Part shown: one piece after another, positions 26,565 to 54,509 of the stretch
Numbering within the stretch: position 1 is the first letter of the stretch
How the letters are laid out: every line of letters starts with the position of its first letter
Assembly: GCA_012517355.1 (NCBI GenBank)
Contig: JAAYVD010000081.1
Location: forward strand, 1-64,000
Direction of reading: 5' to 3'
From: Candidatus Rifleibacteriota bacterium
GTDB lineage: Bacteria; Muiribacteriota; Ozemobacteria; Ozemobacterales; Ozemobacteraceae
DNA length: 64,000 bases
Translations under genes and position numbers: made by a program
Notes under the pieces: model-generated
The model's input: the letters and a program-made list of their open reading frames with translations, nothing else
Database searches by the model: none
What the model was told of the DNA's origin: nothing

Positions 26565-29531
26565 ATGACCCCTGCGGCCGCCTCTCGTGATCCGGAGCGC
26601 CCGCCTTCTCTGGCGGCGGGAGGATCCTGGTTCGCGCGCCTGGGCCTGTGGGTGGGGCTGTTCGTGGTCATCGTCCTGGTCCCGGGACTGGTGCTGCACG
26701 CATGGCTGGAAACCACCCGTCTGGCCCTGGAAGCCGCCGGTGGGGAGCAGGACCGCCGGCGGGTGGACAGCCTCCTGAGCGCCTTCGACCAGGCGTTGAC
26801 GCCGGCGGGGCAGATCCAGACCTTCCTGGAACGGTTCGGCCGCGCCCGGCTCCGGCGGGTTCCCACTCCGACCCGGGCGGCGCGGTGGGAGGGGTTCCTG
26901 CGGCAGGAATGCCGTTGGCCGGCGGCGACCCGGCTGTTCTGGTTCGACGGGGCCGGCCGCCCGGTCGTGCCGCGCGGCTCCACCCCGCCGGCCGGGCAGA
27001 GGATGTGGCAGACGTTGTTTTCGAGCCTGGGTGGCTCCCGGCCCCTGACACCGAGGGAAGCCGCCGATCAGGCCCGGTTGCTGCGGCTGGAATTCGGCCC
27101 GTTCGCCACCCTGGAATTGCTGCAGGAAGGGAAGAGGAAGGTGGTCGAGGTCCTGCATCGCGGGGCCCAGTCCTACCTCCGGGTCCTGCTGTGCGGCACG
27201 GCGGCCGGCCCCCGCGGCGGGGTCCTGGTCATCCTGCCCAAGACCGCCCTGCCGGATGACTGGCATGTGCGGGCTGCGGTCCGGCGTTTCGCCGGGCGGG
27301 GGAGGATGGTGGGGGCGCTCCGGCGGTCGACCGACCGGCAGGTCGGGCATCCGCACCTGGCCCCCGGGTTGCTGCGGGGGATGGCCCAGCGGCTGATCAC
27401 GGCCAGTTCGGGATACCGGGAGTCGGGCAGCGGCAGGCTGTGGACGGCGCGGTTCAGCCGGGCCGATGTCGATCTCATCCTGGTGGGCGGGGTCGATCAC
27501 CGGACCGGGGACTGGTGGCAGGGGGTGGAACGGATCCGGCTCCTGCAACGGGCCCTGGTCATGGGGGGCGGCCTGCTGGGCCTGGTGTTCCTGGGCCTGG
27601 GAGGAGGCTGGTGGCGGTTCGATCCCGGCCTGAGCTACAAGTTCCTGCTGGGGGTCTTTTTGCTGACCGTCCTGCCCCTCGGATCGACGGTCACGGTCGG
27701 AGTGCAGCGGCTGGTGCAGGTCCGCCAGGCCCAGACGGCGTTTCTGGATGGGGCTCTGGAGCGGCCGCTCGAAGATCTCGAACAGGCGGTGTCCAATGGC
27801 TACGGGGAACTGGAAGCCCGGTTGCAGAAGTTTTTCGAAACCCCAGAAACCCGTTTCCCTGGAGCCTCCGAGCGTTTCGATGCGCTGTCGGCGCGCTGGC
27901 GCGACTGGGGGGTCATCTGGGTGGTGGCGGTGCCGTCCCTGGAGGCGGGGGGGGGGCCTGGCTACCAGACGTTCTTCGGAGCCCCCATCAGCCGCAAGAG
28001 CCAGGAATTCTTCAATTCCCTGACCCTGTCCCTCCTCGAGGCCATCCGGTTCCGGGTCTCCCCGCAAGCGCTGCCGGGGAAGCCCACCGCCGAGACCCAG
28101 GCGGTCATCGAATCGCTGCAGAACGACGAACCACGCCTGATGACGTTTTTCAACTGCCTGGGCCCTTTCTCGGTCGGGGGTCGGGACTGGTTCACCTTCC
28201 GGGGATTGGTGGAAGAGCCTGGGGGCGGCTGGAACGGCTATTACGGCCTGACCATCGACCAGCAGACCTGCCAGAATTTCCTGCTGCGGCGGGCTTTGCG
28301 GGCGGGCCGGGCCCCGGGCCGCGTGGTCCGGGTGGCCCGGGCGGGCGGGGTGGGCACCGGTCACCGCGTCTGGGACCGGCTCCTGAAAAGGGCCGAGCTG
28401 CGGCAAGGGCCGGTCCGGGTCCGGCTGTCCACCCATCACGGCGAGGTCGTGGGGTTGGCCCGGCCGCTGCGGATCAGGAACATCATCGGCGCGGTGATGG
28501 TGCGGGCCGACAGCGGGCCGCCCCTGGCCCTCTGGTTCTGGGGCATCCTGCTGGTGGTGGTGGCCTGGGCGGTGATGGGCATGGCCATCTACGTGCGGAT
28601 CCTGCGGATCACCCTCCTGGACCCGCTGCTGGCGCTGACCGAAGCGGTCGACCGGCTGGAGGGAGGGGATTACGGAACCCGCCTCGGGGCGGAGCAGGAG
28701 GACGAACTGGGCACCCTGGGCCGCCGGTTCAACGACCTGGTGATCGGGTTGGGCGAGAAGGTCCGCATGGGGGCCTTCCTGCGGGAAGACCTGGTGGCGC
28801 AGGCCGGCGACCAGGCGGGGGCGGTGGCCCTGCGCCGGCAGACGGGGGTGGTCTGTTTCGCCGGGGTGCGGCGCTTCTCCGACCTGGAGGCGACCTTGGC
28901 CCCAGAGATGGCGCTGGCGATCATGAGCGAGTTCCTGGGCCTTTGTGAGGAGACCATGCACCGGCACGGGGGGAAGATCGACAAGTTCATCGGGGACACC
29001 GCGATGGCCGTGTTCCTCGCCGCGCCGGCGGCAGGATCGCCGGAGGGAGAGGCCCCTGTCGATGCGGGAACCGGGCGCGGCGCGCCGCCTTCCGCGGCGG
29101 CAGAGGGGAGTGGCCACCTTCGTGGCGGTCAGTACCCGGCCGGCGGCCGTCCGGTGGAGGAGGCCGCCCTCGCGGCGGCTTCCGAACTGGCCTCCCGGCT
29201 GGAAAGCTGGCGGGCATCCTGGGGGGAGAAGGGCGTGGCGGTGGCCGGTTTCGGGATCGGCATGGCCAAGGGTCCGGTCCTGGCCGGGGGGATCGGGTCG
29301 CAACACCGGCGGCTCGATTTCACGATCATCGGGGACACGGTGAACCTGGCGGCCCGCCTGGAGAAGCTGGCCGGGACCGGCGGGCGCCCACCCATCCTGG
29401 CCTGCGACGAGGGGATGGCCGCTGACCTGGCGGGCCTGCGCAAGCTGACCGTCGACGTGGAGGAGGTCAGGGGCCGGCAGGGGAGGATCAGGGTCTTCAC
29501 TCCCGCCCGCTCCCCGGGAGGGTCGGCATGA
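26565..29531 (+). CDS. Membrane class III nucleotide cyclase homologue, C2-like (lacks the first metal Asp)
   Basis: 988 residues. TM segments lie at about 25-46, 328-348, 358-380 and 654-677, leaving two large extracytoplasmic regions (about 47-327 and 381-653). A HAMP-like linker (about 678-735) and a class III cyclase domain (about 755-985) follow. The first metal-binding Asp is missing: residues 765-771 read FAGVRRF where active enzymes have FADIRGF. The rest of the site is intact: Lys807, Asp811 (FIGDTAMAVF), Thr920, and Asn927 and Arg931 (GDTVNLAARLE). A Gly/Ala-rich insertion of about 45 residues interrupts the domain. Alone it should be inactive or weak. The stop overlaps the next gene as ATGA, and the partner has the complementary defect. 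Confidence 0.9.
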   Translation: MTPAAASRDPERPPSLAAGGSWFARLGLWVGLFVVIVLVPGLVLHAWLETTRLALEAAGGEQDRRRVDSLLSAFDQALTPAGQIQTFLERFGRARLRRVPTPTRAARWEGFLRQECRWPAATRLFWFDGAGRPVVPRGSTPPAGQRMWQTLFSSLGGSRPLTPREAADQARLLRLEFGPFATLELLQEGKRKVVEVLHRGAQSYLRVLLCGTAAGPRGGVLVILPKTALPDDWHVRAAVRRFAGRGRMVGALRRSTDRQVGHPHLAPGLLRGMAQRLITASSGYRESGSGRLWTARFSRADVDLILVGGVDHRTGDWWQGVERIRLLQRALVMGGGLLGLVFLGLGGGWWRFDPGLSYKFLLGVFLLTVLPLGSTVTVGVQRLVQVRQAQTAFLDGALERPLEDLEQAVSNGYGELEARLQKFFETPETRFPGASERFDALSARWRDWGVIWVVAVPSLEAGGGPGYQTFFGAPISRKSQEFFNSLTLSLLEAIRFRVSPQALPGKPTAETQAVIESLQNDEPRLMTFFNCLGPFSVGGRDWFTFRGLVEEPGGGWNGYYGLTIDQQTCQNFLLRRALRAGRAPGRVVRVARAGGVGTGHRVWDRLLKRAELRQGPVRVRLSTHHGEVVGLARPLRIRNIIGAVMVRADSGPPLALWFWGILLVVVAWAVMGMAIYVRILRITLLDPLLALTEAVDRLEGGDYGTRLGAEQEDELGTLGRRFNDLVIGLGEKVRMGAFLREDLVAQAGDQAGAVALRRQTGVVCFAGVRRFSDLEATLAPEMALAIMSEFLGLCEETMHRHGGKIDKFIGDTAMAVFLAAPAAGSPEGEAPVDAGTGRGAPPSAAAEGSGHLRGGQYPAGGRPVEEAALAAASELASRLESWRASWGEKGVAVAGFGIGMAKGPVLAGGIGSQHRRLDFTIIGDTVNLAARLEKLAGTGGRPPILACDEGMAADLAGLRKLTVDVEEVRGRQGRIRVFTPARSPGGSA

Positions 29532-32413
29532 GATCGGGAGAAAGGGGCGTCGTCCAGCCCGGGGCCCGGGCGTGGCAAGGGGGGCGGTTCCTGCTGGTGG
29601 GCGGGTTCGGCGTGCTCCTGGCCGGGCTGTTGTGGGCCTACGGCGCGGCCTCCCACGAAGCCGCCCTGGAGCTCGCGGAGGCGGAGGTCCGGCGGTTCCT
29701 GCCGGTCCTGCGGGACCTGGTGACCGGGCCCGGCCTCGCCGAGGGAGTGTTCCTGGAGGTCATCGATGGGATGGAGGGGCCCCTGGCCGGCTGGCAGGCG
29801 AAGGAGATGGAGACCCGCTTCCTCGACAGGGGTGGAGGGCTCGGGGCCTTCCTGGTGGCGGGACCGGACGGCCGGGAGTGGAACCAGTGGGGGTTCTCGT
29901 CGGCCACCCGGGAGGTTCTGACCCATTTCGTCCTGAAGTGGGCGGTCCGGGAGAACCTGTCTTCCCGCCTGCCCGCCCCGATCCGGAACCGCGTGGTCCG
30001 GGGCATCCTGGCGCCGGCGTGGATGGATAGAAATCCGCTGCACCGCCTGCTGGGACCCCGAGCGGATTGGACGGAGGTTTTCGAGATCGACGAGAACGGG
30101 GAACCGGGGTTCCTGCTGGTCCACCTGGTGATGCGGCCCGCCTGCCCCGATCTGACGGCGGCCAAACTCGACACGGTGATGCCCAAGCCTCGTGGCGATC
30201 CACTCTGTACCGGGATCGTGGCCGCCTTCCTCCCGCGACGCTGCCTGGACGACGGCTTCCGACGCGGGTTCCTCAACCGGTTCCGGCACCGGTCGCTGTC
30301 TGCCTGCTGGTGTGGCCCAGCCGGAGAACTCCGGCAGGCACCGCTTCCCCCGGGGGTCGGGGCCGCCGTCGAGGTCCGGGCCGGAGGGTTGGCCCAGGGC
30401 ATGGTGCGCTGGCCGGAAGGGGTGGCCGGGTACTGGTTCGATCCCCGGACGCCGGAGGACGTGGTGGTGGTCGTGCGACAGGTGGCGGGCCCCTGGCGGA
30501 CGTGGGTGCGGGCCGCCGTCTGGTGCGGCCTCCTGGGTGCTCTCGGGTTGCTGTGGCAGGGGGTCGGACTGGCCTGGAGCGGGGCGGAGGGGTGGAGCCA
30601 ACCGCTGGGGTGGAAGGTGGCGGAGTTGTTCGGCGGGGCCTCGCTGATGCCCGGCCTGGCGTTCCTTCTCATCCTGCTCACCCCCGAGCCCTGGCACCGG
30701 CAGGAAATCCCACCGACGGTCCTTCGCCTCCTGGAAAGTCGCCTCCAGGCGAGCGAGGAACAACAGTGCCGGTTCCAGAGCGACGTCTGGCAGACCATCG
30801 CTCCCGCTCAGCTCGACCGCCTCTGGCGGGATCTTGTGACCGGGCGGCAGACCGTGGCGGGCTGGATGGCAGGGACGGGGTCGGCCACCATCCAGCTGAT
30901 CTCCGTGGAGGGCCGGGACAGACCGTTCGGGACGGTTATCAGCCGCCGCGATCGGGGTGGAAAGGAACGGGGAGACCTGTTCCGGGCCATCGCCCAGACC
31001 TTTCGCGGCATGGTCGGCCTGCCCCCGATGGGCAAACGGGGGGATGCCGGCCGGATGCAGGGGGAACTGTTGCTCTCCAACCTGGGCGACATGTTCGGCC
31101 AGCAGGTCATCAACGCCTGGTTCACGGTGAGCGACCAGTTGTTCAGCCTTTCCTATTTCAACCAGCCCACCTGGAACGTCTTCCACCTGTTTCTCGACAC
31201 GCGTCGCCAGGTGGAGGGGTTCGCCCACCTCATTCCGGACCGCGTGCTGATCCAGCGGCAACCCGTCCTGAGCCAGGTGCTGGACTTCGACCCGGGCCGG
31301 GAGTTCCTGCCCCCGGTGTCCTTCGCCACCTCCCAGGTCGGACATACTTCCTTCTATCCCGAACGGGTGGCCCGTCTTCCGCTCCTGCGGCCGATCCTTC
31401 GCCGGCTGCTGAGTGAAGGGGGGAGCCAGATCCTGGTCTACTCGTACGGTGGGAAGGAATACGCCTGCCTGGCCAGGCTCCTGGACAACACCGACCACGT
31501 CGGGCTGGCCGTCCTGCCCCTGGATGGGGTGCCGGGGCCGGCGGCGGCCGGGGGGGCCTGGGGCGCGGGAATCCTGTATCCGCTGCTGGTGCTGGTGACC
31601 GTGGCGCTGCTGTTCCGGCGGTTCTACCTCGGCCCGGTGGCGGAACTGTCGGCCGGGGTCGGGGCCATCGCCGCCGGCCGTTTCGACGTCCGCCTCGCCC
31701 CGGTCACCGGTGACGAGATCGGGCGGCTGTGCCAGAGTTTCAACCGGATGGCGGAGGGGCTTCAGGAGAGGGAGTTCCTCGGCCGGTTCCTGTCGGACCT
31801 GACGCGGGAGGCGGTCAGGCAGGGCGAGGCCGCCACGGCCGTCCGGTCGCGGGCCAGCATCCTGTTCTCGGACATCCGGGGCTTCACCGGGCTGTCCGAG
31901 CGGGTGGCTCCGGAGCGCCTGGCCGCCGGCCTGAACGCGCATTTCACCGCGATGGAGACGCTCATCGAGCAGGAGGGCGGGGTGATCGACAAGTTCATCG
32001 GCGACGCCCTGATGGCGGTCTTCCTGCCCGCCCACGGCCGGGAGGATCCGGCGCGGCGGGCGGTGCGGGCCGGCCTGGCCATGGTCGAGACCGCCCGGCA
32101 GCGGCACGATCCCACGTTGCCCCTGGTGATCGGGGTCGGGGTCGGCACGGGGGAGGTGTTGATGGGAACGGTCGGTCGTCCGGACGGCCGTCGCGACTTC
32201 ACGGTGGTCGGGCCCACCGTGCGGCTGGCCGCCCTGATGGAGAAGCGCAGCAAGCAGGCCGCCGTTTCGCCGGTCATCGCCTGCCCGGCCACGCTCGAAC
32301 GGTTGGGAGGGGGCTGGCCGGGCCACCGTCTGCCCGACGTGCGGGGGGAACCCAAGGCCTATGAGATCCGCCGGCCCCGGCAGGGACGTGAGGCCCGCCC
32401 CCCTCTGTCCTGA
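29528..32413 (+). CDS. Membrane class III nucleotide cyclase homologue, C1-like (lacks transition-state Asn/Arg)
   Basis: 961 residues with the same plan as its neighbour: TM at about 20-40, 324-350, 367-386 and 679-700, two large extracytoplasmic regions, HAMP (about 700-755) and a class III cyclase domain (about 770-960). Both metal-binding Asp are present: Asp782 in FSDIRGFTG and Asp826 in FIGDALMAVF, with Lys822. The segment normally reading GDTVNLAAR is GPTVRLAAL, so the transition-state Asn and Arg are Arg899 and Leu903. This protein can supply the metals but not the other half of an active site. Its ATG overlaps the stop of the previous gene. The paralogous topology suggests an old duplication followed by division of labour. 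Confidence 0.9.
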   Translation: MRSGERGVVQPGARAWQGGRFLLVGGFGVLLAGLLWAYGAASHEAALELAEAEVRRFLPVLRDLVTGPGLAEGVFLEVIDGMEGPLAGWQAKEMETRFLDRGGGLGAFLVAGPDGREWNQWGFSSATREVLTHFVLKWAVRENLSSRLPAPIRNRVVRGILAPAWMDRNPLHRLLGPRADWTEVFEIDENGEPGFLLVHLVMRPACPDLTAAKLDTVMPKPRGDPLCTGIVAAFLPRRCLDDGFRRGFLNRFRHRSLSACWCGPAGELRQAPLPPGVGAAVEVRAGGLAQGMVRWPEGVAGYWFDPRTPEDVVVVVRQVAGPWRTWVRAAVWCGLLGALGLLWQGVGLAWSGAEGWSQPLGWKVAELFGGASLMPGLAFLLILLTPEPWHRQEIPPTVLRLLESRLQASEEQQCRFQSDVWQTIAPAQLDRLWRDLVTGRQTVAGWMAGTGSATIQLISVEGRDRPFGTVISRRDRGGKERGDLFRAIAQTFRGMVGLPPMGKRGDAGRMQGELLLSNLGDMFGQQVINAWFTVSDQLFSLSYFNQPTWNVFHLFLDTRRQVEGFAHLIPDRVLIQRQPVLSQVLDFDPGREFLPPVSFATSQVGHTSFYPERVARLPLLRPILRRLLSEGGSQILVYSYGGKEYACLARLLDNTDHVGLAVLPLDGVPGPAAAGGAWGAGILYPLLVLVTVALLFRRFYLGPVAELSAGVGAIAAGRFDVRLAPVTGDEIGRLCQSFNRMAEGLQEREFLGRFLSDLTREAVRQGEAATAVRSRASILFSDIRGFTGLSERVAPERLAAGLNAHFTAMETLIEQEGGVIDKFIGDALMAVFLPAHGREDPARRAVRAGLAMVETARQRHDPTLPLVIGVGVGTGEVLMGTVGRPDGRRDFTVVGPTVRLAALMEKRSKQAAVSPVIACPATLERLGGGWPGHRLPDVRGEPKAYEIRRPRQGREARPPLS

Positions 32414-51093: not shown

Positions 51094-51125
51094 CAAAGGG
51101 AAACCCGCCCGGCAGGCCGGGCGGG
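51094..51125 (-). terminator. Terminator between convergent moaB and the ATPase gene
   Basis: CCCGCCCGG, a short loop and CCGGGCGGG form a very stable stem at 51104-51125. On the minus strand it is followed by TTTCCCTTTG, so it should terminate the ATPase gene; moaB transcripts would also pass through it. Confidence 0.6.
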
Positions 51126-51163
51126 CGGGGTGCGGAGAGGGACGGTGGGCGGGTCGCCGGCGG

Positions 51164-52384
51164 TCAGCCGCCGAACAGGTTTCCCAGCCAGGTCTTTTTG
51201 GTGTCCTTGGCGAACTTCTTGCCGGTCAAGAACTCCATGATGCGGACCATGCCGGCGGCGTAGTCGCAGGAGGCATCCTGTTCGAAGACGGTCTTCTGGT
51301 GCTCGATCAGCTCGGAGATCTGCTTCCAGCTGTCCTTGAGGGTGAAGTCGGCCTTGCGTTTCATCGCCGTCTCGATTTCCTCGAGGGAACGTGAATACTG
51401 GGCGCCCTCGCGGTTGAGGACGAGCTTGATCTTGTCGGGCGGGTATTTCAGGTTCTCCATGACCTTCAGGCACTGGTGCATGCTCTTGATGTGGTTCATG
51501 TTGGGCAGCATCAGCAGGAAGATGGCGTCGGCCATGTCCATGGCGTTGATGGTGAGGTCCTGGAAGAAGGAGTGGGTGTCGAGGATGATGTAGTCGAAGT
51601 GCTTGCGGGCGAGCTCGACGAAGGCTCGCAGATGGCTCGAGTTGATCATTTCCGACTGCTCGGGCTTCTTGGGGGCGGCCAGCACGGAAAACCCCGATTT
51701 GTGATCGACGAGGTACTCCTTGAGCACCTCGGGCTTGTCGGTGGGGTTCTCGACGAGGTCGGCGATGGTGCGCTTGGGGTGCAGGTCGAGCATGAAGGCG
51801 AGGTCGCCGAACTGCAGGTCGAGGTCGACGAGCAGGGCCTTGGCCTGCCCCATCTTGGCGAGGCCGGCGGCCAGGTTGGCGGCGAACACGCTCTTGCCCG
51901 CCCCGCTCTTGGGGCTGAAGGCCACCACCAGTTTGCCCAGCTTGGTCTCGGCGGGGGTCTCGGGGGCCGCGGCGCGGAACCGGCTCGACAGGGCCGTCAT
52001 GATGCGGAGGGCGATGAAAGAATTGAGCCGCAGCATCATGTCGAAATCACCCTTGGCGATGACCATGACCGTGGAATCGACGGCGGTGCGCAGGGTGGCG
52101 TTGCGGGGCGCGCCGCCGACCAGGGCCATCTCGCCGAAGAAGCTGTCCTTGTCAGTATGGGAGAGGGTCTTGATCACCTTTTCGGCGTCGCCGTCCTTCT
52201 TCAGGACCTCGACCTTGCCTTCCTTGAGGAGGTAGAAGGCGTCACCGATGTCCCCTTCCTTGAACAGCACGGTGCCTTTGGGGCAGAAGCGCTCCTTGGT
52301 GACCTGGCTGACCTTGCTCAGATCGGAGTCTTCCAGTCCTTCGAACAATGCGATCTTCTTCAATATGTCGAGAATACGAATCAC
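51164..52384 (-). CDS. Cyclic-nucleotide-binding domain fused to a MinD/CpaE-type ATPase
   Basis: 406 residues. Residues 1-135 are a cyclic-nucleotide-binding domain whose phosphate-binding cassette (FFGEMALVGGAPRNATLRT) keeps the Glu and Arg that bind the cyclic phosphate. Residues of about 150-400 are a MinD-type P-loop ATPase with deviant Walker A (SPKSGAGKSVFAANLA), LLVDLDLQFGDLAFMLDL and DYIILDTHSFF; its closest style is CpaE/TadZ. cAMP or cGMP binding could control ATPase localisation. The start is GTG at 52384 because an in-frame TGA lies three codons upstream. A TATACT -10 box is at 52418-52423. Confidence 0.92.
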   Translation of the reverse strand: MIRILDILKKIALFEGLEDSDLSKVSQVTKERFCPKGTVLFKEGDIGDAFYLLKEGKVEVLKKDGDAEKVIKTLSHTDKDSFFGEMALVGGAPRNATLRTAVDSTVMVIAKGDFDMMLRLNSFIALRIMTALSSRFRAAAPETPAETKLGKLVVAFSPKSGAGKSVFAANLAAGLAKMGQAKALLVDLDLQFGDLAFMLDLHPKRTIADLVENPTDKPEVLKEYLVDHKSGFSVLAAPKKPEQSEMINSSHLRAFVELARKHFDYIILDTHSFFQDLTINAMDMADAIFLLMLPNMNHIKSMHQCLKVMENLKYPPDKIKLVLNREGAQYSRSLEEIETAMKRKADFTLKDSWKQISELIEHQKTVFEQDASCDYAAGMVRIMEFLTGKKFAKDTKKTWLGNLFGG

Positions 52385-52475: not shown

Positions 52476-52913
52476 TCATTTCCTCAGGGCGGCGGGAGGC
52501 TGTTCACCACCCGGGCCGGAGGCAGGGGTCGCGGGCAGCGGCGGCGCCGGCGGGGTCTCCCCTGGGTCGGCGGGCAGGCCCATCACCTTCTGATACAGCT
52601 TCTCGAGGGTCTCCATGTTGAGGACCTTCTCCCAGACCGATTCGGGGCCCTTCATGGAAATGAGTTTCACTTCCTTGGGATTGACCGCGATGAAGGCCAC
52701 CGGCTCGATGGTGGCGCCGCCGCCGGACCCGCCGCCGAAGCCTACGGAGTCCTTCTTGCCCTCGCCGCCGCCGGCGCCGAACCCGAAGGAGACCTTGGTC
52801 ACGGGGATGATGGTCCAGTTCTGGACCGTGTGGGGTTCGCCGATCACCGTCTTGGAGTTGATGGCGACCTGGAGCTCGGAAAGAACCGTCTTGATCAGGG
52901 AATCGATACCCAT
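52476..52913 (-). CDS. gerW: GerW/YtfJ-family protein
   Basis: 145 residues. The family is named for a Bacillus spore protein needed for germination but also occurs in non-spore-formers. VIGEPHTVQNWTIIPVTKVSFGFGAGGGEG and GGGATIEPVAFIAVNPKEVKLI are the family core. The last 35 residues are Pro/Ala-rich. The ATG at 52913 has GAGGAGG 10 bases upstream. The DUF2953 partner lies upstream on the same strand, as in Bacillus ytfI-ytfJ, but a terminator lies between them here. Confidence 0.92.
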   Translation of the reverse strand: MGIDSLIKTVLSELQVAINSKTVIGEPHTVQNWTIIPVTKVSFGFGAGGGEGKKDSVGFGGGSGGGATIEPVAFIAVNPKEVKLISMKGPESVWEKVLNMETLEKLYQKVMGLPADPGETPPAPPLPATPASGPGGEQPPAALRK

Positions 52914-53120: not shown

Positions 53121-54509
53121 TCACGAGGGGTCTCCGACCGGGCCGGGGCCGCTGGCGGGCCCGGCCGATGGGCCCGGCGCCGACCCACCGGGTGGGACCC
53201 CCTTGTCCTTGGGCGTGTCGGGGTCGGCCGCCTGGCCGTCGTGGGCGGTTTTGCGTTGGCGGTACCAGGTCCACAGGTCCCAGGCGGCGGACCAGACCTC
53301 GCGGTCGAGGACGAAGGCGAGGGCAGCGTAGCCGATCCGCCAGGGATGGATGCCGAGGTCGGTCTGGACCCGCCCCCCCACCGCAGCCCCCGTGAAGACC
53401 GGCTGGAAATCGAGATCGACCCGGGGCGGGAAGAACATCCCCGCGGTCTGGTAGTAGAGGCCGGTGAACACCCCCGTCAGGTGCGGTTCGGGGAAGCCGA
53501 CGCGCAGGGTGCCGGTGGTGCCGCGGTGGGAGAAGGTGCCGCGGGAGTTTTCCCAGGCGCGCCAGAAGATGGGTGAGGCCCGCCGCCAGACGAGGCGCAC
53601 CTGCCGCAGGCGGTGCCGGGTCTGACGGAACATCTGGCGGCCGCGTTGCCGGGCGGCGCGGAGGGCTTTCTGCAGCCGTTCGACGAAGCCTTCCGGCCCG
53701 GTTCCGGCCGGTTCCCGGTCGGGGGAGCCCGGCCCTCCGGCGCCGGTCCCGCCGGTCGAGGGGGGCCGGGGCGGGGTGCCGGCCGCGGCGGTCTCCGAGG
53801 CCGGGCCGGGGTCCAGCGGTATGGGGGCGGGATCCGACGCGCGGCTGACCGCAGGGGCGGGGCGGGTGGCCTCGGACGTTTCGGGCATCCCTGCAGGCCT
53901 TCGGGCCGGGGCTATGGGCGGTGCTGCCGGGGAGGGACCATCGGCCCTGGGACGGGCGGGCGGGAGCGGTTCCGCGGCCGTGGAGAGGAGCTCGTCGGGC
54001 CGGTGCGGGGCCGGGGTTGCTCCGGGGCCACGGGAAGGGGGCGTCGGCTCCGGGGTGGAGGCGGGGGTCATCCTCGGCGATTCGGCCGGAGCGGCTCCGA
54101 CGCTGGGGCCCCCGGGGCCCCCGGTGCCGGTGGGGGGCGGTGGGGCGGTGCGGAAGGGGGGAAGATCGTCGGGGGGCGGCCGTTCCGGCCGTTCCGGCCG
54201 GCCGGCCCGGTCCGGCCACCGTTTCAGGATCCGCCGCCAGGGGCCGCATTCCAGCACCAGCAGCCGGTGCCGGCGGGTGGCCACCGCGCCGAGGCGGAGG
54301 CTGCCGAAGAGGTGGGAGATCCAGCATTCCCCGCGCTGCGAGGCACGCCCGGCGCGCAGCCGGAGCCGGATGAACACGGGATGGAGGGCGAAGAACAGGC
54401 CGACCGCGAGGGCGGCCAGGGTTCCCCAGACCAGGGTGAACTTCAGCGCGGCCCAGAGGCCGCCCACCACCCAAGCGAGGCTTCCGCCCAGCCAGTTCAG
54501 CCAGTCCAT
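53121..54509 (-). CDS. DUF2953-like membrane protein with long disordered insert
   Basis: 462 residues. An N-terminal TM segment (WVVGGLWAALKFTLVWGTLAALAVGLFFAL) leads to a strand-rich start (LRLRAGRASQRGECWISHLFGSLRLG). A Pro/Ala-rich insert of about 170 residues follows. The C-terminal part (GTTGTLRVGFPEPHLTGVFTGLYYQTAGMFFPPRVDLDFQPVF) has the DUF2953 pattern seen in YtfI, the usual neighbour of GerW. The insert is unusual for the family. It follows the lipid-kinase gene by 16 bases. Confidence 0.75.
   Translation of the reverse strand: MDWLNWLGGSLAWVVGGLWAALKFTLVWGTLAALAVGLFFALHPVFIRLRLRAGRASQRGECWISHLFGSLRLGAVATRRHRLLVLECGPWRRILKRWPDRAGRPERPERPPPDDLPPFRTAPPPPTGTGGPGGPSVGAAPAESPRMTPASTPEPTPPSRGPGATPAPHRPDELLSTAAEPLPPARPRADGPSPAAPPIAPARRPAGMPETSEATRPAPAVSRASDPAPIPLDPGPASETAAAGTPPRPPSTGGTGAGGPGSPDREPAGTGPEGFVERLQKALRAARQRGRQMFRQTRHRLRQVRLVWRRASPIFWRAWENSRGTFSHRGTTGTLRVGFPEPHLTGVFTGLYYQTAGMFFPPRVDLDFQPVFTGAAVGGRVQTDLGIHPWRIGYAALAFVLDREVWSAAWDLWTWYRQRKTAHDGQAADPDTPKDKGVPPGGSAPGPSAGPASGPGPVGDPS

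Follow-up and report, generated by a model that had tools for sequence, protein, structure and literature searches.

A cyclic-nucleotide-binding domain fused to a MinD-type ATPase in the Ozemobacteraceae: a candidate ligand-gated membrane switch

The window analysed here is a stretch of 64,000 nucleotides from a genome of 7.1 Mb (184 contigs, 96% completeness) that, among named organisms, is closest to Candidatus Ozemobacter sibiricus (83% across the best segment) and to other Riflebacteria. On its reverse strand, a single gene joins a cyclic-nucleotide-binding (CNB) domain to a MinD/CpaE-type ATPase domain (Table 1). The gene starts with GTG, with a GAGAGGGA stretch immediately 5′, and its product has two Pfam matches above their curated cut-offs, one to cNMP_binding (PF00027, 71.3 bits against 27.5) and one to AAA_31 (PF13614, residues 151-312, E 5.3e-12). 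The original prediction had described this fusion, together with an intact phosphate-binding cassette and the deviant Walker A lysine. All three hold, the cassette reading FFGEMALVGGAPRNAT and the Walker motif SPKSGAGKS. The GC content of 0.57/0.34/0.90 at codon positions 1/2/3, the full-length orthologues in many separate genomes and a dN/dS of about 0.20-0.23 against two close relatives (NG86) indicate that the fusion is not an artefact of assembly or reading frame, and purifying selection acts on the gene. An AlphaFold model of the protein (mean pLDDT 79.0, pTM 0.69) has two confident domains, with a linker (residues 131-145) and a tail (residues 393-405, the last 13) that are of low confidence or disordered. 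Residue numbering starts at residue 2 of the open frame and follows the orthologue alignments.

Table 1. Features of the fusion locus, in coordinates of the window
Feature	Position	Strand	Basis or detail
CNB-MinD fusion gene	51164..52384	(-)	406 aa; open frame, Pfam domains, orthologues
CNB domain, residues 31-118	52028..52291	(-)	PF00027, E 6.5e-20
Phosphate-binding cassette FGEMALVGGAPRNAT with G83, E84, R93	52094..52138	(-)	three residues invariant in 14/14 orthologues
MinD/CpaE-type ATPase domain, residues about 148-389	51215..51940	(-)	AAA_31; model aligns to 3ea0 and 3q9l
Deviant Walker A KSGAGKS; K158 signature, K163 P-loop	51890..51910	(-)	both lysines invariant in 14/14 orthologues
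Switch I D186-L-D188	51818..51826	(-)	D188 invariant in 14/14, aligned with the E. coli MinD D40 position
C-terminal tail KKTWLGNLFGG, putative MinD-like membrane-targeting sequence	51167..51199	(-)	7/11 identical to E. coli MinD
GerW/YtfJ-family gene, directly upstream of the fusion	52476..52913	(-)	PF09579, E 1.3e-21; gap 91 bp
Terminator-like hairpin after the fusion gene	51103..51126	(-)	10-pair stem

The GerW/YtfJ-family gene is probably co-transcribed with the fusion. It scores 72.7 bits against the spore-specific model TIGR02874, under the cut-off of 116.3. A PF09579 gene adjoins the fusion on the same strand in 14 of 15 distinct orthologous loci (the window and 13 of 14 others, with L123, the same locus as L037, counted once), the sole exception being that of genome G008. 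This is the most conserved clue to the partner of the fusion. GerW is found in 20 of 29 genomes, and in nine of these (e.g. G006, G011, G013 and G018) the fusion is not beside it, so GerW can do without it. The GerW/YtfJ family is named for spores and has, to our knowledge, no established function, and thus gives no pointer to the cargo of the fusion. The gerW gene of B. subtilis and B. megaterium is reported to be forespore-specific and dispensable for germination (PMC4366231). Downstream of the fusion, the genes are convergent and encode a MoCF_biosynth protein, a SpoIIE phosphatase, CoaE and a histidine kinase. Hairpins of the terminator-like kind number three in the stretch against a shuffle mean of 2.1. 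An assignment of the gene at 53121-54509 to YtfI/DUF2953 is not supported: neither its product nor two orthologues gave a Pfam match, and O. sibiricus gave one sub-threshold DUF2953 match (18.0 against 22).

The closest PDB sequence relatives of the CNB domain include domains of cAMP- and cGMP-dependent kinases, and structural matches of the modelled domain include PKG I and a Streptomyces regulator. The residue that follows R93 of the cassette is Asn in 13 of 14 orthologues and Ser in the remaining one. In kinase CNB domains, an Ala at this position is described as usual for cAMP-specific domains and a Ser or Thr for cGMP-specific ones (PMC6717892). Since Asn is neither usual class residue, a preference for cAMP or cGMP is not readable from the sequence. 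The bacterial CNB-EAL fusion Bd1971 is reported to be activated by both cAMP and cGMP (PMC6717892). In this cAMP-sensing phosphodiesterase of Bdellovibrio, the N-terminal CNB domain switches the enzyme (PMC6717892), as it would in the window protein, but the output is an EAL phosphodiesterase where the window protein has a MinD ATPase.

The ATPase domain satisfies the KxGxGK[ST] deviant Walker signature through K158 and K163. Its model superposes on the ParA-family ATPase 3ea0 (Z 28.5, 2.3 Å, 238 residues), E. coli MinD 3q9l (Z 26.9, 2.8 Å, 235 residues), FlhG/FleN (Z about 24-26) and 3fkq (Z 21.7), which we take to be the E. rectale TadZ; the Foldseek and VIA-align matches to MinD, FlhG and ParA folds cover residues 147-389. 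With MinD, the window protein shares the fold, the deviant Walker A, the Asp at the D40 position and a similar C-terminal tail. It differs from MinD by its extra CNB domain, by a score far below the MinD equivalog cut-off (NCBIfam TIGR01968, 63.1 bits against 212.9) and by its occurrence in a family without detectable MinC (18 genomes searched). Membrane binding is reported to trigger hydrolysis by MinD, which loses its activity when the P-loop Lys or D40 is changed (PMC13246001). FlhG/FleN is a comparable membrane-associated ATPase, but the genome has a separate FlhG-like gene, devoid of a CNB domain, in its flagellar cluster. The architecture resembles in plan that of CpaE/TadZ, which combines an N-terminal regulatory domain, a MinD-like ATPase with deviant Walker A and a C-terminal amphipathic tail (PMC13170226). 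In the window protein, however, the CNB domain stands where CpaE has its receiver, Response_reg giving no Pfam match anywhere in the protein, and the gene lies outside a tad locus. In the open-licence literature, to which the search was largely confined with subscription journals mostly outside it, no description of a CNB domain fused to a MinD-like protein or CpaE was found. Within that literature, the fusion would be a previously unfound variation on the CpaE/MinD theme.

The tail, which the original prediction had not mentioned, matches the E. coli MinD C-terminus KKGFLKRLFGG, and its F403 is invariant in all 14 orthologues. None of 184 other called genes of the genome exceeds 4/11 identity to the MinD tail (the set includes wrong-strand calls made by a crude gene caller in high-GC stretches, e.g. 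L011). Membrane-targeting sequences are described for MinD and FlhG (PMC10241942), and a C-terminal amphipathic helix for CpaE (PMC13170226). Comparable hydrophobic-basic ends occur in the FHA-MinD, REC-MinD and FlhG proteins and in most fusions that have no C-terminal extension. The helical hydrophobic moment was rejected as proof of a membrane tail, as it sets neither this tail nor the E. coli one apart: a fraction of 0.34 of the other 11-mers of the window protein reach the tail's score, and 0.31 in E. coli MinD. Given the resemblance but a non-discriminating moment, membrane binding by the tail is likely, not proven.

The aligned set comprises 14 orthologues, the 13 others being 46-82% identical to the window protein. 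Full-length orthologues were found in 10 of 28 other genomes, along with one contig-edge fragment. Among the matches listed, at least 18 of 24 Ozemobacteraceae genomes have an orthologue (two as fragments), and none of the 15 other genomes of the phylum has one at a comparable score. By its sequence distribution, the window fusion is conserved through the Ozemobacteraceae. It also belongs to a larger family. By Pfam, the source genome encodes eight further CNB-MinD fusions, four of them with C-terminal TPR repeats and one (C22:97516) with a weak match on the ATPase side (CbiA, 20.9 bits against 25.4), as well as an FHA-MinD, a REC-MinD in the Tad locus and the FlhG-like gene. Each of the eight has lost at least one ligand- or ATP-site residue. 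The P-loop Lys is replaced in C8 (Cys), C10 (Arg) and C22:97516 (Arg), and the signature Lys is lost in C69, C2, C71, C10 and both C22 genes. The cassette Arg is lost in C96 and C8, and the Asp at the D40 position in C96 and C22:121041. The window protein retains all of these residues, and the losses in all eight sisters mean that such full retention is not a given. Four CNB-MinD proteins with TPR arrays (L013:14303-17266, L014:7764-10010, L016:8799-12305 and L011:8681-10459) are all without the signature lysine.

Matches spanning both domains occur in at least 29 of 39 genomes of the phylum (92 of 150 rows, among the matches listed). Outside it, the phylum of G046 gave none in 16 genomes; with the best four candidates per genome scored, there were none in 368 genomes of the phylum of G044 and one in 392 of the phylum of G041. 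This single case, in G146, lies in a locus collinear with that of G028 over eight genes at 56-90% identity, which suggests that the G146 contig may be misplaced. A contig scan with six peptide patterns found full-length fusions in Riflebacteria only. Matches on Sinorhizobium plasmids (75% cover) were discarded as fusions, being by eye a REC-type CpaE joined to a TadE-like part. In a tree of the ATPase domains, the window group forms one clade (71/100); deep branches are weak and some are long. At least two changes occurred among the other CNB fusions, in an order that the tree does not support. The combination has multiplied in one little-known bacterial phylum, and through it a small messenger may decide the placement of cell machinery.

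One sister fusion has a distinctive setting. On contig C96 (L010:6032-11092), an FHA-MinD, a Ser/Thr kinase and a PP2C phosphatase face a CNB-MinD, and the same order recurs in all ten genomes checked (the source genome and L158-L166 in nine others), which were picked for the proximity of their two MinD genes among the matches listed. In all ten, the P-loop Lys of the CNB-MinD is intact, but Asn occupies the D40 position and the cassette Arg is missing; in the FHA-MinD, Leu or Ile replaces the P-loop Lys in all ten, and the Asp is retained in eight. From its residues, the cassette looks like a mixed pair, in which an ATP-binding subunit and a pseudo-ATPase subunit would be under phospho-control. 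The same contig encodes a short protein (L009:6594-7397) that joins a CNB to an MCP signalling domain and may be a soluble chemoreceptor for cyclic nucleotides.

ATPases of the MinD/ParA class position chromosomes, pili, flagella and division sites, usually under the direction of partner proteins. The reading favoured here, to which we give an even chance, is that the fusion is a ligand-gated, membrane-binding switch of the MinD type, with a CNB domain in the position of the CpaE receiver. In the presence of ATP, the ATPase domains would form a sandwich dimer, which the paired tails would hold on the inner membrane. Binding of a cyclic nucleotide to the N-terminal domain would then shift dimerization, membrane residence or contact with a partner. 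This reading is supported because the ligand- and ATP-site residues are invariant in 14/14 orthologues while the eight sister fusions are degenerate. It draws further support from the MinD-, FlhG-, FleN- and ParA-like fold of the ATPase, the 7/11 tail and the GerW adjacency at 14/15 loci, and it has reported precedents in the membrane-triggered hydrolysis of MinD (PMC13246001) and in Bd1971 (PMC6717892). It is weakened by the Asn after R93, by the loss of the cassette Arg in 10/10 sister proteins of the FHA cassette and by the non-discriminating hydrophobic moment. A built-in cyclic-nucleotide sensor would couple cell-wide signalling straight to spatial organization. The setting is a phylum rich in cyclases, in which the Ozemobacteraceae have no detectable MinC (18 genomes searched). 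A functional link would also offer the GerW/YtfJ family a partner that can be tested in organisms that form no spores. The division machinery is an improbable cargo, and for the window paralogue the Tad pilus is probably not the primary one either.

In the main rival reading, the CNB domain has ceased to sense cyclic nucleotides and serves as a dimerization or protein-docking module, as proposed for the CpaE receiver. The sister fusion beside the FHA-MinD is without the cassette Arg in every genome checked, yet its fold is kept by profile, so in this family a CNB domain can have a role that needs no ligand. The cassettes of paralogues C8 and C22:97516 are disrupted as well, and CpaE dimers are thought to touch through their REC domains (PMC13170226). 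For the sister protein, such a role seems likely. It fits the window group less well, where G83, E84 and R93 are strictly conserved and a mere scaffold would not need them; for the window protein itself, this explanation is plausible but on the unlikely side. A broader form of the favoured switch reading, offered tentatively and rather unlikely in its entirety, is that the Riflebacteria/Ozemobacteria have a lineage-specific toolkit of MinD-type membrane switches, in which cyclic-nucleotide or FHA sensors have taken the place of the CpaE-style receiver. The window protein would be its fully active ligand-gated member, with cAMP or cGMP setting the membrane residence of a MinD-type dimer and the positioning of a GerW-linked cargo, so that a cyclic mononucleotide would feed directly into a MinD-type positioning ATPase. 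Some sisters would pair a nucleotide-binding subunit with a pseudo-ATPase.

An additional CpaE, tying assembly of the Tad pilus to a second messenger, is an improbable identity for the window protein. The operon of G028 reads REC-MinD, CpaF-like T2SSE, TadB, TadC (T2SSF), DUF192 and CNB-MinD, and G146 repeats this order from TadB onward. A fusion and TadC occur together in 28 of 39 genomes of the phylum, against a fusion alone in one, TadC alone in three and neither in seven, with fusions counted among the matches listed (Fisher p 5.7e-5, a test that ignores kinship). In two of the genomes with neither, G021 and G026, a REC-MinD lies close to the end of a contig or on a short one, and the assembly may therefore have cut off their tad operons. 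Against a pilus role stand the absence of tad genes among the called genes of the window and from the relatives' loci that were read, the REC-MinD CpaE-like gene that the source genome's Tad locus already possesses, and the position of the G028 protein outside the window clade of the tree. The predicted control of a polarity or pilus ATPase by a cyclic nucleotide therefore fares unevenly: its general idea is supported, both sites being retained in 14/14 orthologous sequences, and its pilus part is mixed, with the G028 operon and the TadC co-occurrence on one side and a window gene with no Tad or type IV pilus genes beside it on the other.

The Tad REC-MinD proteins of the family have lost the catalytic Asp that the window fusion retains. 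At the P-loop position, they have Arg in 14 and Lys in 7 of the 21 family genomes read (by alignment, 21 of 24; L141 of G016, an FHA-MinD, was left out and G013 and G033 lie outside the set), scattered over genera. A heterodimer in which the window protein would pair with the Tad REC-MinD, combining an intact with a degenerate P-loop, was considered and dropped, given Lys in 7/21 REC-MinD proteins and invariably in the window group. The CNB-MinD proteins that end the tad operons of G028 (L117:2390-8805) and G146 (L116:1-3333) have Cys for the P-loop Lys, and the G028 operon also holds an intact REC-MinD.

It is very unlikely that the fusion stands in for the Min system and sets the position of the division septum. 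MinC_C is above its cut-off in none of the 18 family genomes searched (22.7 bits against 33.2 in the source genome), and no canonical MinD was recognized among the matches of the source genome. However, an orthologue of the fusion is missing in 6 of 24 family genomes among the matches listed, the score against the MinD equivalog is low, and the conserved neighbourhood has no recognized division genes. Elsewhere in the phylum, MinC_C exceeds its cut-off in 3 of 11 genomes, compared with 0 of 18 in the Ozemobacteraceae.

The original prediction also proposed that the fusion is the dedicated effector of a split class III cyclase pair (26565-32413), which is scarcely credible: the two do lie on one contig, about 18.8 kb apart (predicted at about 19 kb), and both cyclases match PF00211, but the link is unspecific with 79 such matches in the source genome, the pair and the fusion occupy separate transcription units on opposite strands, and the suggested co-occurrence fails, since among 28 other genomes cyclase 1 has a clear orthologue in G002 alone (49% identity), against ten plus one fragment for the fusion. 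By these comparisons, the pair and the fusion do not travel together, and no result connects them specifically. Most other long matches to cyclase 1 are at about 30% identity or below. Since class III cyclases are present in all 29 genomes searched (8 to 79 PF00211 matches each), the case that the original prediction named as refuting, fusions in genomes devoid of such cyclases, could not arise in this set. By eye, the two adjacent cyclases look complementary; the first is without what we take to be the usual first metal Asp and the second without the presumed Asn/Arg pair. The cyclase set of the source genome is very large, and several relatives have 43-64 matches.
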